Assembly (NCBI RefSeq): GCF_000002865.3
Contig: NW_001865064.1
Coordinates: 62,041 to 98,651, forward strand
Reading direction: 5' to 3'
DNA: 36,611 nucleotides
Source of the DNA: Monosiga brevicollis MX1
Taxonomy: Eukaryota > Opisthokonta > Choanoflagellata > Craspedida > Salpingoecidae
This document shows, in pieces, positions 6,098 through 15,255 of this stretch. The first letter of the stretch is position 1; the number at the start of each line of letters is the position of its first letter. The position numbers and the translations under genes were made by a program. The notes under the pieces are model-generated. The model saw only the letters and a program-made list of their open reading frames with translations. It was not told the DNA's origin and searched no databases.

Positions 6098-9000
6098 ATG
6101 AGCTTTTGGTCTGCTTTGAACAAGTAAGTCAAGTTGATGCTAACCCCTGCCATTGCCCTTCAAGTCATCTCATGCGCGTACCCGACTGGCTGCAATGGAT
6201 GTGATAGACTTGAAACGTCTGACCTGCCTCCGCCACCGGATGAAACTACTGAAGCTGCGGAAACAGATGAAGGATGGGATGCTGTCACAATTGTCAGCGC
6301 AGGTACGTCGGGTTCCCTGAAAGAGCCTTGATTATCGTCATCTTGCCACACCTCACTCAATTTGTGCACGTAGTGTCGGGCGAAGAACCAACACTCGAGG
6401 TCTCGGCTGTTTCCAAGATCAAGGAGAAGGCTCAAGCCCGCTCGACCAACGAAGAAGAGCGTCGTCCACCGGGCGAGCATCCTCCTCCAACAGTGCCTCC
6501 TGTTCCCCGTGCTGTCTCTCGTGCAGCCTCGAAGGTGGAAGAGACCGTCAAGACTGCGCGTCAAGTGGACGCCAGTGAGCTGGCGCGCGAGGCTCAAAAG
6601 CGGATCGAGCTTCTTGAGGCTAATCTTGTTGAGTACAACCTGGTGGGCTCGGACGCCAACACTGGAGTAATCTTCCTCGCTCCAACGAGCTCTGGCAAGA
6701 CGACCACGCTGCTCTGGCTTGAAGGCCATCCGATTGAAGAGCGTGCTGTTCCCGGCAAAGAACACTTGCGCCATCTTAACGTGGCCTGCAGCGCCCCCGA
6801 CGAAGTGCAGGGGCTAGTGGGGGACGGTATATCGGCCAGGACCATCACGCCGCGCTATCTCGCGAGGGATCGCATCGTGTACGTTGACCCTGCTGGGTTC
6901 AACGACACCCGCTCGGTCATCCTCGCCATGATCAACAGCATGGGTTTGCGCCACCTCCTGGACAAGATGCCCCGCAAGCGAATCGTCCTGCTCGTCAACT
7001 TCCGGGGTCTCTCCCGCCTTGATGCCGTCTCTAGCATGCTGCAGAGCTTGCAACGGCTTTGCCCCGACTTTGAGGCTCTGGCTCCGGGAATCCTCTTTCT
7101 GTACTCCCGCCTGGACGGGAATACGAGCAAAGAGGTCATCGTCGAGCTTCTCAACGGCTACAAGGCGCGCCAGGGCATTCGCGAAGTACCCTACTACACC
7201 AAGACGCTGGACCTGATGATCCACCAACTCGAGCGCCACGAGGACACTGTCCTCCTCTACCCACACCTTGATGCCCCCGATGGCGTGCGCAATATCATTG
7301 CTCGTGGCATTCGCGATTGCTTGCCGTTTCATCATATGGGGTCACCCCTTGAGGATGGCGAGATTGCCATGATACAGCAGGCCATTGGCAAGGAACTGGG
7401 TAGCTTGCATACCTACCTCAGCAGTGAACAGCCCAGCGTTTATCGCCAGGGCATCAAACACCTGACCACGATTCGCACGCTTGCTCAGCTCATTAATGAC
7501 GAGGCCATCTCTGAGATGTATCACCAAGCTCTCGATCTCCTGGGCAAGGTCATTCAAACGCATGCTGTGAGCTTTGCGCGCGCTCTGAAATCTGGGCAAT
7601 TTGAGGTAGCCGCCCGTCACGACAAGACCCTTCAAGCTCTGGAAGGCTACAACCAAGAGTTGCAACAGACCACTGCCATCTCTCGAAACCTTTGGTCGCG
7701 TGTGCAGCAAGCCTGCGACCTTGTCGACAGTGCGCAAGCCTTTGAATCTCTCGCCGATTTGCAGCGAGCGCTTCGAGCGGCGGCTGCAGCGGTGGGCATG
7801 CGCTTGGCCAAGGACGTATCAGACGCTAACGAGCAAGAGGCGTTTGCCGAGTGCGCGCTGCCGGCCGTGGCCACGCTGTGTCAGTTTGACCAACACCTTG
7901 CTTCTTCCTGCTCGGGACGCTTGCTATGGAATCCAATTGCCGAATCGCTGCTGAACGAGGCAGTGCAAGCTTCAGCGGCCATCACCGCCGTGGTCCAGGC
8001 CCTGAACAGCGCTATCACCGTCCCTTCTTCGCGCAATGATCTCTCTGTTGACATGTGGCAGGCGCTGCGCTCTGCTCTGGGCCTGCACCAGCGCGCACAA
8101 GCGTACAGCGGATATGTGCTTTTGGACCAGCTGCGCACTTGCTATGATCAGGACAAGACCTTGCTTCTCGAAGCTGCCAGCCAGCTCTGTGCAACCATCA
8201 CAACCATCCACAAGCTGATGGCCGAGTATCACGCAGAAGACCTTATGCTGGAGCGCTTGGCTAGTCTCATGGCCTTGCTTCGGCACGTGGAAACGGTAGC
8301 CGGGCCCGAGTGCGTGGCCCCTGGCTCGCGCCATGCCGACATGCAAAGTGCTTTTGCTCGCGTTGTCCGCGATCGCTTGAAGAAACCCATCGCCCACGCC
8401 GTCACCGACGAGCAGCCAGCGCTTGCCGCATCTGCCCTCGGGCAGCTACTTGCCCTCCTCGAACCCTTTGGAGCAGACGAGGTGGTGCAAGATACTCAAC
8501 GCGATGCCCTCCTACTCCTCAATCGCCTGGCCAACCAGCAGCGCCACTGCCAAGAGACCCTGCGCACGATACTCGCCCACGAGGGCTCTGCACGGGATTT
8601 TGAGGCCTTAGTCAAGGCGATAAAAGCGCTCACCGCGTGCCAAGTTCTTGACAAGATTATCGAGGATGCCCGCTGGTTGCCTGCAGATGCCGGCTCACCA
8701 GACGCCCAAGCGCAAGATCAAGGGCAAGAACAGGGTGCTTTGTCAGCCAAAGTGACTTGGCAAACCAGCGCCCCGCTTATTAAGCGCACTATCCAAGAGC
8801 TGCACGACTTTCTTGGCTCCTTGTGCAAGGACCTTGCATCCGCGCTCAACACGCGAGCCACTCCCGGAGATCGCGTTTTGACAAGCCTGCAAGCCTTCCA
8901 CCTCGTTCAGAGCCTGCTCGACGATGAGATTGTGCAAACCCTGGTGGCGCAAGTCGCTGCTACCATCACGCAAGCCTGCGACCATCTTGCTTGTTCCAGC

Positions 9001-12000
9001 GTTGAGAGCATGAGTGGTCACACCCGGGATGGCCACTTGAAGTGGTTAACGCAGACGGCCGAGTTTGTCGGTGATCTCGACGCTACCTATCCGCTCTTGC
9101 GCAGCCCAGAATGGGCTTCGGTTCAGGCTAGCCTCAAAGATCAAAATGAGCGCATGCTCGCCGACACCAAGGCTTGGGGGGACCAACTGGTTGCTACAGT
9201 GCGTGACACAGTTTCCGAGGATCGCCTGGGCGAAACAGCATCTGAGCTCGATGCGCTGCACGAGTTGGGCCATGCGCAGGATCTGCAGGTCCAAGGCATT
9301 GCAGCCCCCTTGTATGAACAAGCATTGGAGGTTGTGCGTCGTCGTTTGAAAGAGCTTTACGAGGAGTTTAATCTCTCTATCAGCGCGACAGATCTGGGCG
9401 TCTCAGTGAAAGCCAAAAAAGTTCTCATTGATGCCATAGTGTTGCATCCCCATCTCCCCGAGGCCAATCTTATTACCAAGTCCATTGAAGAAAAAGACCA
9501 AGCCATGATGAATGCCCTCCGGGAGCAATTTGACACCGACCTTCTTGCCAACAACTTCCACGCAATCCATGATGTTCTTACGGGTCTGTTACAGACTCAA
9601 GACGCCCCAGAATGGCGCGCCGCCTACCGAGGGCTCAAGCGCACTGCTATTCTCAAGATGCAGCCAGAGTTGAATCAGCGTGTGGAGGAAATGCAACGCG
9701 CGGCGCGTGGCATTCGTGCCACCCATGCCAGTACTCAGATTGGCGATTTGCTACAAAGGCTCGATCAGCAGGACGCCTGGTTTGTCAAGGCGCGTGTCCT
9801 GGATGCTGCCCTTCCTGAGCTGCGTCTAGCCGAGGCAGAAAAGCAGTTTTCAATCATTGTCAAGAACATCTACCACCGCTTGTGCAGCCGACTCTGGGCA
9901 GCTATGAAAAAGTACCATTTCAATACAGCTGAGACTCTCTACGGTCACCTCCAAGCGTGGCAATGCGTACACCGCGCTGACCTGGACTCTTCCGATTTCC
10001 TTAACGATACATCCATGGCTGACACTTCCGTTGCCGGTGAGGCGCCGATGAGCGATAGTGCCAGCGAGGCCCCCAGCGATGTTTTCGGCGCCCCTAGCAA
10101 GTTGACGGCCATTGAACGCTACGCCGCCGAACTAGATACACAGGTGACCAATCATGTCACGTCTCTTTTGAAGGAGCGGCGTGGTGTGGAACTCGCTCGT
10201 GTGCTACGCAGCCTGAAGTCAGTGTACGATGGGGTGTCAGAGCAGGGTCTGTTCACAACGGATCTGGTTGGGCTGGTGGATCAAGTCTTCCACCAGGTGC
10301 ATCGCGAGGCACAAGCCGAGCTTTCGGGCATGCAGCGCACCCTGTACCGACAAGGAGGTCCTGCGGCAGCCCGCGAGCAGCTGGCCGCGTTCGACGAGTT
10401 ATTTCGACCGCTGGAAACGCAACGTCTGCCGCCCTTTGAGAATGACGAGTCGCAGATTTGTCAGCTGCACAGAGCAGTACTGACAGAAGTCCGCGATACC
10501 GAGGAATATTTCACCTTGCCCGCGCTTTCACCTGAGGTAGCAGATGAAATTCTTGCCATGCTGGCTCAGGGTCGAGCGGGGAACATGGGCAGAGTACTTG
10601 ATTCGGTCAAGGCCCTCTGTAAGAGGGCGGTGGCTGATTTGCAGGGAAATTGCTACGCCAATGAATTGGGCCTTGGTCTGACTGACATTGTCGTGGACCG
10701 CTTCTTGGGGCTTGCCAAGCTTGGGACCGAACTCAAGCGTCCCGACATTGCTTTGGCATCACAACACGTCAATGCCATGCTGGGCAGCAGCGTCACCGAA
10801 GGCTTTCGAGCCGTCAACAAATGGCTGCGCTCAGATCTTCAAACAGTCCATAATATGTTGAAGGCTTTTAATGTGGACCAAGCGCGAGAGGCCCTCTCGG
10901 GCCTGACGCAAAGCGTCAATCGCCTCTCTGCTACAGGCCTTCCAGCCGAGTCGCTGGATTTCCTCAAGATGCTTCAGGACACTCTCGAGTCGTTTACGGT
11001 CAATGTCAAGTATGGCACCGATCCGGTGGATCGACTCGACTTGGCTGGCTTCATTGCCGATAGCTTTTCAGCCGAGACCTTGGCGGCTCGCATCGACCAA
11101 TTGGCCATGGTCACCTCGGCACAGCACTCGAGCAAGAGCGCACCCGTGTTTGGCAGCCAGGACGTCTTCAATCCCGGACAAGCCCTGAATAAAGTCCTTG
11201 TGCATTGGCAGGGTCTACTGCGGCAGGCTACCACAGTTGTAGAGGAGTGCATTGCTGGCTGTCAGGATGTTAGCATCCTTGCGGCACACTACGCGGCCGT
11301 GGCCAAGCTGGCACAACGACAGCCTGCCGAGCTGAACGACGACGTAGCCAAGACACTGCACCACTTGAATGACCGCCTCGCGGCCTTTGCGCGTTCGGCC
11401 GGGGCTCGCGTTCAAGCCCGGGTCGAGGGAAAGCACTGGCACGAGCTAAACGAGAACCTTTCGTTCACTTATCAGGTCGAACGTGCCCTCGCCACTTTGG
11501 CACAGGCCCAGCTCCCCGCGCTGACCACACCCCTTGCAGATTCGCAGGAGCAAGCACTCCTTTCGCGGGTCCAAGCCGAGGACTATGTGGGCAACGACAC
11601 ACTCGACGAACTCGCACGCTGTTTGGGGCGCCTTCAAGAGCTGTCCTCCAACTGTCTCGCAGAACGAGTCAAGACTGAGGTCAAATCGCGCATCAAGGCT
11701 CGACTAGACGGTCTGAAGGGCCAGGGGAGCACTGTCGACTTGGACCTGGCCGACTGCTTGTCCGACGTTGGCGAGTATGGCGAGGAGGTCAAGCAATCTT
11801 ACAACCAGTTTGCGGAGGCATTGGTTCGCCAGCGAAAGGCAGCAACCAAGACCATGACGATTGACAAGGCCTTGGCCGATATGCAAGCGGGGCCTCACGC
11901 CATCTCTGCCGCACATGCCGATCGCCTGCGAGCTGCCTATGACAGCTACCGTCGTGAGTTTGAAACACACATTGCAAAATCAACTTCGGCCATTCCGGCC

Positions 12001-14514
12001 CTCGTGGATGCCGTTCGTCAAAAGTGCGACAAAGTGGCCCACCGACCCAACGCCCTGTTGACGGAGTTGCCGGTCATCCTCGCTGTGCTCGCAGCGATTT
12101 GGTCCCTGGGCAGCCGCAAAGCCATGGCTAAAGCCTCGCAAGCGGATCGCGGGATTTACAAGGAACTGCACACGATTCAGGTGTTGGCACTCTTTGAGCT
12201 GCTGGGCTTGTGCGACGCCAAGGTTGGCTTGCGGCGCGTGGCCTCTTGGGTCAAGTCCTTTGTCCCCTTTGGTGCCCACGACAAGCTCAGTGGAGCCTTC
12301 GTGCAGATACAAACAGGCGGGGGCAAGAGCATTTTACTCGGGTTTGCCAGCACGCTCTACGCCCTTCTGGGGTTTGAAGTGTCCTGCGCCTGCTTTAGCA
12401 ACATTCTCAGCTCGCGCGACTACAACGACTTTAAAGACTTTTTTGATGTGGTTCAAGTGGCAGGACTTGTCAAGTATGGCCCCTTGAGCGAGTTGGCCCG
12501 AGCCGAACTGAACGTCAACGGAGATATCCGCCAGGCCCTGCAGACGCTCGTGATCGACGGCCGCCTTTCGGATCCAACGGTGCGGCCGGGTGCCCTGCCC
12601 AAAGTCCTGCTGGTCGACGAGGTCGACACGTTGCTGTCAAATGTTTTCCTGACCGAGCCATATACTCCCGGCACGCTGGTGCACGATGACAGCTTTTTGG
12701 AGCTCCTGCGCGCCGTGTGGCAGGACCAGTCGCTCACCTTGGCGCAGATCCAGGCGCTGCCCAGCGCGCAAAAACTGCTGCAAACCTATGCTCACACCGA
12801 GAAGTTGGTGCTCGCTGCACTGGAGAACGTCGCGTTGGCCCGAGCAGCATTTGAGCGTCGCGAGCACCCATATGAAGTGCAGGAAGGCCTCATCGCGTAT
12901 AAGCGTGAGGGCCTGGACGAGCCCAGCTCTGATATTTCCTACGGCTACGAGACGCAGTTTGCCTACTTGGCCGAAGAAGCGCGCGGCGCAGTGATGCCTG
13001 AGGTGTGCAGGCAGCACGTGGGGCTTTTCTGCTCGGGCGGCCGCTTCAGCTTTGTCAAGTTGATTCAGAAATTTGACCTCATTAGCGGCGTCACCGGGAC
13101 CATACCCGACGACCTGGCGCTCCTGCGCACCAAGTTTGGGGTTGGGCGGTGTTCGTACATGCCAAGCATGTATGGCAAGATCAACTTTCAGCGCGACCCA
13201 GTGCAGCTGACCAGCAACAAAGCGCAGCAGCACCAGGCGATTGCAGGAGAGACCTTTGAGCGGGCCCAAGGGCGGGCAGTTATTGTCTTCTTTCAGACCA
13301 CGGCCGATCTCGAGGCCTTTCGAGCTTCGCCCGAGTTTACTGCCAAGCTTGGAGGACGGCCCATAAACATCATCACCGTGGGGTCGCCCGACATTCCTCA
13401 TCGCATCAAGCAAGCCACGCGAAAGGACATGGTGACGCTGGCCACGGCACCCTTTGGTCGAGGCTCTGATTTCACCGTTCTGAATCGCGACATTGAAAAG
13501 AACGGGGGCATTCACGTGATTCAGGCCTTTCTCTCTGTCGAGGTGACTGAGCAAATCCAGATTGAGGGCCGGACCGCTCGCGAGAGCAATAGCGGCAGTT
13601 ACCGCCTCGTGCTCTGCCTGGAAGACGTGCAAGCGCTGCTGGGCGAGCACTTCCCGTCGGACATTCATGAGGGTGCCTTTGCCGAACTGCCCCCGACGCT
13701 GGATGCAGCCCGGCGCACCTTGCATGCGGAGATGCTTGCGCAGTCTTTTGAGGCACTGGCGGCGTGTGAGGCAGCGCACGACACGTCCCTCAAGCTGGTT
13801 CGAGAGCTCTTCAGCGGCAAAAAGGGCGACCCCCAGAACGCGCTGCGCTACGTGCATGAATATTCGGCCCAGGCAGAGTATGCCGAGGCCGTGGATGTTG
13901 TTGTGGTGGTGGATATTTCGGGTAGCATGGGGCCCCATGTCCCGCAGGCCCAGGCATTCGTGCGCACCATTGCTCAGGAAGGGTTTCACTTGGACCAGGC
14001 TTCGAGTCGGAATCGCCTGGGCATCTTGACGTTTGATGTGCAGGCTCAAGCCATGGGTGGAGAGGACTTTTTGTCCGACGACTGGACCACAGTGCAGCAG
14101 CGCGCCGCGGCCATTGCCACCAAAGGCTACCAAACCTTTTATCTGCCGCCTCTGAAATTGTTGGAGGAGAAGCTGTGCCAGGCCAAGGCCGCTGATCCAA
14201 CTCGCTACGCTTCGACTCGCCGCATTGTACTCTTCCAAACGGACGGCGCCAACATGGACACGGAAAAGTCAAGCGCCATTCGCGCAACCGCAGAGCGGAT
14301 CGTTGACGAGCTGGACACGACGCTCATGGCCGTCTTGACGGGGCCAGACGTGCCCCCAGATAGCGTGGCCTACTTTGTGGGCCGGGCGGGTCAGTTTAAG
14401 ACCATGGACCGCAGCGACTCGGACTTTTTGGCTCAGCTCATCATCACGGTGGACACTTACGACGCACTGGTGCAACGCGCCAGCAACATTGCCAACTGCG
14501 CCACCTCAATGTAG
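6098..14514 (+). CDS. Giant GTPase-like / SecA-like motor / von Willebrand A fusion protein (2753 aa)
   Basis: Three exons: 6098-6123, 6208-6302 and 6374-14514. The two introns have strong donors (GTAAGT, GTACGT), and both phases close, joining MSFWSALNK to LETSDLPPPPD and then to the long exon. Residues in the spliced protein: a P-loop APTSSGKTT at 143-151 (Ala at the first Gly position), DPAGF at 212-216 (G3-like) and a following SRLD (G4-like) suggest a septin/AIG1/dynamin-type GTPase domain. About residues 400-2000 are Leu/Ala/Glu/Gln-rich helical sequence with no recognised domain. A SecA-like motor follows: QTGGGKS (2020-2026), ILSSRDYNDF, LLVDEVDTLL (Walker B, DEVD 2122-2125), SGVTGT (from 2278), APFGRGSDF (motif V, near 2400) and EGRTARE (motif VI, near 2440). 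A VWA domain closes the protein, with a DISGS MIDAS (2554-2558) and FQTDGANMD (Asp near 2664). There is no signal peptide or membrane span, so it is probably cytosolic. The cellular role is unknown. Confidence 0.9.
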
Positions 14515-15255
14515 GGAAGCAGCCGATGATTTCCTGTAGCATGTCGAAATGGGGAGGATTTGATCTGTTTCTTCTTGCGTGTGCGTGTGTGTGTGTGTCA
14601 GGCTCCAGCACGCGTGGAAGCACGGATTTGACGCTAACACTGTGTGTGTGTGTGTGTGTGTGTGTCGGCCACTGATGGCGAGGGAGAGGCGGGAAGCTCT
14701 CCTTTGCCGTCAAGGTCTTTCACGAAAAATTCAAACAGTTTACATCCAGATGTTCTCCTAAGCACGTTGAACGCACCACCATTCCGCAACAAAATCAGAA
14801 TCACATGTACATGCTATGGCTTGCTGGAAGGAGCGCTTGACGGCAACCCTTCATCGGGCCAATGCAGAGATGCTTCGCCATCGCTTTGGGCAGATCCTTG
14901 AACTCATCACCGACGTCTAGCCACTTTGCTTCACTGCATCGTGCGCTCCCTATTACAGTAGTGTTCTTTGAGTCGTTCGTTCAGGTTTTTCTTTTTCCCT
15001 AAGAAGTCACTCTTTGGTCTTTTGACTCTCTTTTTCGTTTTCTGTTTCAGTCGCGAGACGCTTTGACACTTGTGGTGGTGGTGGTGGTGGTGTACAGGCT
15101 TTGACCTTCAACCTCCAGGCGTGGAAGAGTGCACACTGACTATTGCCAGCTAATGAAGAGCACCCCTCGAATCAAGCGTCAGTACTGTGTGTATCTACCA
15201 CTATAAAACAACAAGCGAAAAAAAAAGCACAAAAACAGCGAAAAATTCTGAAAAA

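Follow-up and report, generated by a model that had tools for sequence, protein, structure and literature searches.

The window analysed here is a stretch of 36,611 nucleotides from the choanoflagellate Monosiga brevicollis MX1 (contig NW_001865064.1, positions 62,041 to 98,651), and it contains a very long gene for which we predict three exons; this gene and all of its features lie on the plus strand. The first predicted exon (6098-6123; 26 nt, encoding MSFWSALN..) ends at the GT donor GTAAGT, the second (6208-6302) follows an AG acceptor and ends at the donor GTACGT, and the third (6374-14514, with the stop codon at 14512-14514) again follows an AG. The spliced product has 2753 amino acids and no internal stops, which is exactly the length given in the original prediction, and a reading frame at 6274-14514 is open for 2746 codons. 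Exon 3 carries an N-terminal GTPase-like domain (G domain), a SecA-like motor and a VWA domain in one unbroken frame. Because that exon is unbroken and the order of the motifs is kept in intact paralogues, we rejected the possibility that the three parts belong to separate genes and regard the locus as one gene; at the level of sequence, the fusion of the three modules in a single chain is confirmed.

Close to the N-terminus lies GWDAV (6272-6286), an instance of a short GWxxV motif that resembles an LIR by eye only. The form GW..[VIL] occurs once per sequence, within residues 12-31, in all four sequences examined (the window protein, its paralogues C51 and C48, and an 822-codon frame of C44), of which C44 is a copy of C51 and hence not an independent instance. 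The G domain follows at 6586-7383, located by structure prediction and Foldseek and conserved in C51, C48 and one C41 copy. Its Walker A, APTSSGKT (6679-6702, residue 143), is a variant in which A replaces the first G, and its DPAG (6886-6897, residue 212) corresponds to the G3 DxxG. The best of five structure models is fair (pLDDT 71.5, pTM 0.75) and the only one of the five that is, the remaining four scoring 46.9-52.9; going by that model, the domain may be assigned a GTPase fold with P-loop and DxxG at moderate confidence, as had been proposed. Its best fold match is GIMAP7 (E 3.3e-4, TM 0.37-0.39), although identity to the GIMAP/AIG1 GTPases is 12% and the TM normalised on the query does not exceed 0.38 in the listed Foldseek rows. 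Moreover, the place of G4 (N/TKxD, guanine specificity) appears by eye to be degenerate (SRLD/SRLG/SHLE/THAE). A Pfam scan of the domain gave no GTPase family above cut-off and no AIG1 match, AAA_16 and ABC_tran head the weak matches obtained for this domain in C48 and C51, and a PDB profile search with the domain returned nothing below 0.1.

Between the G domain and the motor extends an Ala/Leu-rich linker of ~1560 residues (7384-12069), presumably alpha-helical from its composition, in which a Pfam scan found no convincing family. Its identity to C51 is mostly 23-41% per 100-residue block and rises above 50% adjoining the motor. The motor core itself (12070-13857), delimited by PDB profile search and hhalign, has the arrangement NBD1-PPXD-NBD2 plus a short helical tail. 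It bears, in order, the Walker A TGGGKS (12313-12330, residue 2021; TGEGKT in SecA), SSRDY (12409-12423, residue 2053) in the region of the SecA LAxRDAE, the Walker B DEVD (12616-12627, residue 2122), SGVTGT (13084-13101, residue 2278), GRGSDF (13456-13473, residue 2402) and GRTAR (13567-13581, residue 2439), the last being the GRTxR form of symbiont proteins described below and not the GRSGRQ/GRAGRQ of bacterial SecA. Between DEVD and SGVTGT sits a putative clamp (PPXD-like) insertion of 152 residues (12628-13083), which hhalign aligned end to end with a set of short SecA-like ATPases with its length kept; the window protein, C51 and C48 have no Pfam SecA_PP_bind match.

How firmly can this motor be called SecA-like? 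A profile of it matched 26 PDB chains at E<=10, 24 of them SecA chains and the other two, with E above 1, chains named Aurora kinase. Comparison by hhalign with bacterial, short, symbiont and ankyrin-SecA sets gave 98.2-99.5%, against 0.5 and 3.2% for controls, and in each of five bacterial genomes the single match overlapped the position of secA, at E<=1e-4 in only two. In Foldseek, SecA accounted for 35 of 37 matches at E<=0.001. The underlying motor+VWA model is poor (pLDDT 41.9, pTM 0.30; SecA matches at TM 0.17-0.26), so we used only the ranking, and the support for clamp geometry comes from sequence. We compared the SecA Pfam set PF07517/PF21090/PF01043/PF07516: the SecA_DEAD scores of the window protein (20.9 bits) and C51 (22.1 bits) fall below the cut-off of 24.6 and that of C48 (34.1 bits) above it, and the window gene is not among the listed matches of a six-frame SecA_DEAD search of the genome. 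NCBIfam SecA2 models reached 30.8 bits at best, far below their cut-off of 862. SecA is itself an SF2-type motor, and together with a weak Helicase_C match in C48 (0.035) this could be taken to mean that the protein is a nucleic-acid helicase or remodeller merely resembling SecA. We consider that quite improbable: the PDB profile matches include no other helicase, the fold search, made with the poor model, lists 35 SecA chains ahead of UvrB and DDM1, and the clamp insertion is aligned by hhalign. No helicase family outdid SecA in either search, and a nucleic-acid helicase was rejected as the better match. Judged by these profile and alignment matches, the module is a SecA-type two-RecA motor, nearer SecA than other helicases, as originally predicted.

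The window protein shares the motor motifs, their order and a clamp-sized insertion with bacterial SecA/SecA2, whereas it lacks a recognisable wing/scaffold or SEC-C, is fused to a GTPase-like domain and a VWA, and sits on a very long branch. Neither SecA_SW (wing/scaffold) nor SEC-C gave a Pfam match up to E=1 in the window protein, C51 or C48, in a scan for which E. coli SecA, as control, matched at 2.1e-72 and 1e-10. A preprotein motor is therefore not implied. A true preprotein translocase coupled to an organelle membrane channel would account for a SecA-type motor with a clamp, but, given these two domains without a match, no transit peptide in the original prediction and the lack, to our knowledge, of a plastid in choanoflagellates, we think it most improbable. 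One short bacterial SecA-like motor that we scanned is core-only, without wing/scaffold, so that a core-only SecA motor exists elsewhere.

The VWA domain (13894-14334), placed by Pfam and paralogue alignment, retains the MIDAS pattern DxSxS..T..D, in agreement with the intact MIDAS originally proposed: DISGSM lies at 13912-13929 (residue 2554), the T, placed by paralogue alignment, in GYQTFYL within 13894-14334, and the D in TDG at 14239-14247 (residue 2663). These residues are common to C51, whose VWA is above the Pfam cut-off (2.3e-10); the matches of the window protein (VWA 1.8e-4, VWA_2 1.3e-4) are both below it.

Besides the window gene, the same genome holds two further intact paralogues and decayed copies. 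C51, at 41% identity to the window protein (62% in the motor), possesses the three modules complete; C48, at 35% identity (50% in the motor), combines G domain and motor without a VWA, which suggests that client recruitment is modular. Both keep the module order, and the arrangement is not due to chance. Between C31 and C51 the motor+VWA has dN 0.33, dS ~2.5 and w ~0.13, and on this comparison, with dS near saturation, that part is under purifying selection; in the N-terminal part of C31/C51, as in C31/C48, dN/dS is saturated. Might the protein then be a binding scaffold that has lost motor or GTPase catalysis? The degenerate G4, the variant Walker A of the G domain and a Walker A changed to GKR in C44 would fit such a role, but C44 is a truncated recent copy of C51, so its change says little, and the window protein, C51 and C48 do not differ in the motor Walker A, DEVD, GRGSD or GRTAR. 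We regard a scaffold as distinctly unlikely.

The original prediction had treated SecA as a motor of bacteria and plastids, a restriction that is not borne out: passages of a 2013 report record SecA-domain genes of giant size in insects, Daphnia, Tetrahymena, Polysphondylium and Salpingoeca, alongside Wolbachia wBol1_1091/1092 and Amoebophilus Aasi_1610/1144 (PMC3639933). As described there, these genes are, like ours, very long, largely intronless and apart from bacterial SecA, and they include those of another choanoflagellate, Salpingoeca, the likeness being one of description and not of sequence; unlike our protein, they come with no mention of a GTPase or VWA in those passages. The window gene is of a giant, intron-poor, eukaryotic type with a SecA core apart from bacterial SecA. 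Our literature searches for the GTPase–SecA–VWA architecture found no account among the matches listed.

In our trees very long branches separate the motor, an ankyrin-SecA protein and giants of Rickettsiales symbionts from bacterial SecAs, seven rows (four host, three symbiont) splitting at 99/99 and 100/100 from bacterial sets of 20 or 25 rows, a split that is open to artefact because the trees are unrooted and those branches very long. Giant SecA-like proteins are found on plasmids of the intracellular symbionts Ca. Megaera polyxenophila and Ca. Bandiella woodruffii. With the family profile their best domains reach 38 and 30 bits, compared with 5.7 for E. coli SecA, and the Megaera motor has NGGxHVxxxFLxxxxxxExQxxGRTxR in common with the window family, whereas the lengths (1589, 5225 and 2966 aa) and flanks differ. 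No VWA was found in the two proteins scanned (the 1589-aa Megaera and a Bandiella protein), and a G-domain search of the three symbiont giants gave no match. Short SecA-like ATPases of proteobacteria (638-760 aa among the rows included; up to 52.8 bits) are the best hhalign partner of the motor, at 99.5%, yet unlike it fall with bacterial SecA in the tree. One such short ATPase gene adjoins adaptor-subunit genes and TolC. Among plasmids, 17 records matched at E<=1, the best being Ca. Megaera (3e-6), and among phages four Listeria records at E 1e-2 or weaker. Two scans of viral contigs with two peptide patterns each gave 61 and 44 pattern stretches, and one scan of prokaryotic genome contigs with two patterns gave 54, none of them confirmed; such pattern scans miss distant kin.

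These plasmid-borne relatives, the GIMAP7 match, the copies and relics of the family within one genome and the common N-terminal GWxxV, which we take to have the shape of an LIR motif, would all suit an innate-immunity or xenophagy-type sensor, in which intruding bacteria or vacuoles are the site where a GIMAP-like GTPase assembles, with the VWA attaching to a surface and the motor pulling out or unfolding proteins. However, choanoflagellates eat bacteria, so gene exchange alone could explain the shared genes, the LIR reading was made by eye, no repertoire-like diversity was shown, and three family members matched no PADLOC model at E<=0.1, leaving the defence role raised in the original prediction with no positive evidence. 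A sensor therefore seems to us unlikely.

What, then, might such a protein do? We give about an even chance to its being a choanoflagellate single-chain remodelling ATPase, SecY-independent and GTP-gated, with clients recruited by the VWA. Client capture by the VWA would depend on an acidic residue completing the metal site; after that the SecA clamp would grip the client and thread or unfold it with ATP, in the cytosol and without a membrane channel; and GTP binding by the N-terminal domain would switch assembly or recruitment. Against this count the facts that SF2 motors also include nucleic-acid translocases, that motif I is TGGGKS and not TGEGKT, and that G4 is degenerate. Midasin and MoxR/VWA likewise pair a motor with a MIDAS VWA, midasin with a long linker as in the window protein, but their motor is AAA+ where ours is SecA-type; the working mode of the remodelling ATPase could thus be similar, with a SecA motor replacing AAA+. 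More tentatively, the fusion to a MIDAS VWA and a GIMAP-like GTPase may have made a channel-freed SecA motor into a new kind of eukaryotic machine, a cytosolic GTP-gated polypeptide unfoldase that converged on the midasin/MoxR-VWA design. We know of no functional study of any eukaryotic SecA-domain protein, nor is there one among the literature matches listed. If this is a channel-free SecA motor with capture and switch domains of its own, it would demonstrate SecA's ability to act as a soluble unfoldase, and one could then ask in a choanoflagellate what role an overlooked motor class plays and whether it is traded between symbiont plasmids and hosts.

On the forward strand of the window an open frame runs without a break from 6274 to 14514 (2746 codons), and splicing three exons with GT donors and AG acceptors (6098-6123, 6208-6302 and 6374-14514, all +) gives exactly the 2753-residue protein of the original prediction. 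The two short 5' exons are predicted by this splice model; the three modules are independent of them because the N-terminal GTPase-like domain (G domain, 6586-7383), the SecA-type motor (12070-13857) and the VWA domain (13894-14334) all lie in the unbroken frame of exon 3. A GWxxV motif at 6272-6286 (+) is, by its shape, a putative ATG8-binding LIR motif; each of the four family sequences examined has a single copy of it, close to the N-terminus (for the C44 copy of C51, in its 822-codon frame only). Past the stop the DNA appears non-coding, with GT-repeat tracts at 14580-14670, and five of ten neighbouring frames have Pfam matches (carbamoyltransferase, class-V aminotransferase, IQ motifs, in one case with a sub-cut-off LRR, and lactate/malate dehydrogenase).

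The window belongs to an assembly of 39.47 Mb in 57 contigs, and a 43-residue UNC18 peptide encoded there agrees at 43 of 43 positions with PDB 2xhe chain A, from the Unc18-syntaxin complex of the choanoflagellate Monosiga brevicollis, which makes this species almost certainly the host. The protein has two intact paralogues in its own genome, on contigs C51 and C48. The C51 paralogue (2759 aa) carries the G domain, motor and VWA and is 41% identical overall and 62% in the motor, while the C48 paralogue (35% and 50%) is a 2546-codon frame that ends just ahead of where the VWA would begin, and no VWA was found for it in the own-genome search; about 2 kb beyond its stop was covered by readable sequence. 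The remaining copies have decayed. C44 (G000:C44:453406-460568) was copied recently from C51, to which it is 93-94% identical (dS about 0.08); it is split over two frames, its motor Walker A reads GKR in place of GKS, and no G domain was found in it. What is left on C52 (G000:C52:233855-234718) is short pieces, of which one contains a stop. C41 (about 695-699 kb) retains weak matches (G domain 3e-5, motor 7.6e-4); both are relics of further members, with pieces of G domain and motor. Between the window gene and C51 the motor and VWA are constrained (dN 0.33, dS about 2.5), with the caveat that dS is near saturation. More distant is an ankyrin-repeat protein on contig C16, a 3707-aa frame with a clearer SecA domain (SecA_DEAD 2.1e-47), which is a second SecA lineage within the same genome; its locus (G000:C16, about 126515-137638; L004, L005, L013) also has PSAKGPAVAPK-type repeats and SecA_PP_bind.

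Against Pfam SecA_DEAD the window motor scored 2.4e-4, under cut-off, and C48 2.2e-8, over it; a six-frame genome search listed C16, C48 and C51 and missed the window gene. At E<=10 a three-row motor profile picked out 26 distinct sequences in the PDB, of which 24 were SecA (top 7.3e-8) and two were 68-69-residue chains named Aurora kinase, with E above 1. By hhalign the motor reached 99.5% with 14 short proteobacterial SecA-like ATPases, the best partner (perhaps owing to the diversity of that set), 99.1% with three giant proteins from plasmids of Rickettsiales symbionts, 98.3% with C16 and 98.2% with bacterial SecA (20 rows, and in addition a second segment from E. coli), and controls using the G domain gave 3.2 and 0.5%; the alignment that was printed, with the short set as partner, continues across the clamp region. 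In five bacterial genomes the profile had one match each, all overlapping that genome's secA locus as determined by hand (contig numbers agree in three), a weak control in that E was <=1e-4 in two and 0.02-0.19 in three. The predicted structure of motor and VWA (814 residues, three rows) was poor (pLDDT 41.9, pTM 0.30), and of its 37 Foldseek matches at E<=0.001 the first 35 were SecA chains and the other two UvrB and DDM1, with TM-scores on the query of 0.17-0.26 that are no proof of fold. The original prediction had named a better-fitting helicase family as evidence against SecA; none appeared among the PDB profile matches, and SecA came first in the Foldseek ranking of that poor model. A motor for nucleic acid is improbable.

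In SecA, it is through the wing/scaffold and SEC-C parts that the motor is coupled with SecY and SecB. Neither Pfam SecA_SW nor SEC-C matched any of four proteins (window, C51, C48 and C16) at an E of 1 or less, whereas the E. coli SecA control gave 2.1e-72 and 1e-10. Since these domains are unmatched and only about 100 residues separate the final motor motif from the VWA, the coupling parts are absent or unrecognisable, and the protein is therefore a carrier of a SecA-type motor and is not classed as a SecA preprotein translocase; of the original prediction, the SecA-like motor stands. An organelle translocase is very improbable.

The C-terminal MIDAS is intact, as had been predicted, with DxSxS, T and D all present in both the window protein and C51 (VWA_2 1.3e-4, under cut-off, and 2.3e-10, over it). 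Equally, the predicted N-terminal P-loop (AxxxxGKT, and GxxxxGKS in C51 and C48) and DPAG/DPPG are present and kept in the paralogues. Pfam gave the G domains sub-cut-off matches only (AAA_16 and ABC_tran leading for C48, ABC_tran for C51), and a sequence search against the PDB nothing under 0.1. Of five models, built from four rows each, the best was fair (pLDDT 71.5, pTM 0.75; the others 46.9-52.9) and had five Foldseek matches at E<=0.001, namely GIMAP7 (3.3e-4), two pre-60S chains (probably Nog1) and two Gi-complex chains, followed by FeoB, dynamin-type proteins and two further GIMAPs, with modest TM-scores (about 0.3-0.4 on the query) and large rmsd. The modelled fold is likely of TRAFAC GTPase type; kinship with GIMAPs is no more than a lead, and, the G4 motif being degenerate, any specificity for guanine is putative. 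An immune sensor is a doubtful though conceivable role for the chain.

In a 27-row motor tree seven rows (window, C51, C48, C16, two from Ca. Megaera polyxenophila, one from Ca. Bandiella) split at 99/99 from 20 bacterial SecAs (19 loci of 72 fetched, and E. coli), and in a 32-row tree the same seven split at 100/100 from 25, made up of 10 loci from the same 19 together with E. coli and 14 short SecA-like rows (the 15 loci L130-L144 without L135, a giant frame, and L141, where no frame was found, plus a Methylosinus row). Because both trees are unrooted and the window family stem is 6-7 changes per column, long-branch attraction, of which the tool warned for the first tree, stays a possible cause of the split. 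The position of C16 among the seven is without support, its nearest rows by path and identity being bacterial SecAs. Independently of the trees, the best domains under the family profile scored 38 (Megaera), 30 (Bandiella), 22 (Megaera-2), 16 (C16) and 5.7 bits (E. coli SecA), and an FL..ExQ..GRTxR signature is common to the window family and Megaera. Against symbiont kinship, bacterial frames, mostly of 660-830 aa, reach 52.8 bits, with matches at E<=1e-5 in 33 of the 398 genomes, yet the 13 placed in the tree all group with bacterial SecAs, so the evidence on the nearest outside relative points both ways.

The Megaera genes, 4770 and 15678 nt, lie side by side on plasmid CP113870.1 (36608-57076; L120, L124), and this pair resembles the adjacent wBol1_1091/1092 of Wolbachia (4488 and 11829 nt) in PMC3639933. 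The SecA-like protein encoded on the Bandiella plasmid (NZ_CP110822.1, 1-8901; L121) has 2966 aa and a LysM domain and is annotated as a DEAD/DEAH box helicase, and a 1.4 Mb proteobacterial genome has a giant SecA-like gene across at least two frames (G348:C1:712500-724500; L145). The short proteins (NZ_AP022333.1, L122; L130-L144) have 638-760 aa in the rows used; in the one scanned the wing/scaffold was not found, and its gene, annotated 'prepilin peptidase', adjoins genes annotated as PqqD-family, two RND periplasmic adaptors and TolC, perhaps a SecA-driven exporter.

An intact MIDAS lets a VWA domain bind, by way of a metal, an acidic side chain of its partner, and in midasin and MoxR/VWA pairs the VWA holds the client while the AAA+ motor pulls; the SecA clamp shuts on unfolded polypeptide, which the motor pushes. 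With a VWA, a SecA core and a GTPase-like switch on one chain, along with a linker about 1560 residues long, the simplest reading, to which we give roughly even credence, is a cytosolic, SecY-free protein remodeller, in which the GTP state of the N-terminal domain would set assembly or location, the VWA would deliver the client and the SecA core would thread or unfold it. Of its rivals, the immune sensor comes first and a scaffold whose catalysis has been lost, also unlikely, second, with the nucleic-acid motor and the organelle translocase behind both.

Giant secA-domain genes occur in Wolbachia wBol1-b and Amoebophilus, wBol1-b matches extend to mosquitoes, ants, Daphnia, Tribolium, Tetrahymena, Polysphondylium and Salpingoeca, and eukaryotic-type and bacterial forms make two clades (passages of PMC3639933). 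Passages elsewhere describe Amoebophilus effectors including SecA-like and GIMAP-type domains (PMC3482391), a SecA DEAD-like protein listed for a Legionella species (PMC4256840) and giant secreted actinobacterial toxins with SecA-like ATPase domains (PMC8195603). A GTPase-SecA-VWA chain is absent from the passages of these four papers, and no account of one was found among the open-access papers that the searches listed. The window protein is no one-off: its eukaryotic family is real, conserved and unusual, a variant, with GTPase-SecA-VWA order in the window protein and C51 and a putative function, of the known but little-studied giant SecA-domain proteins.
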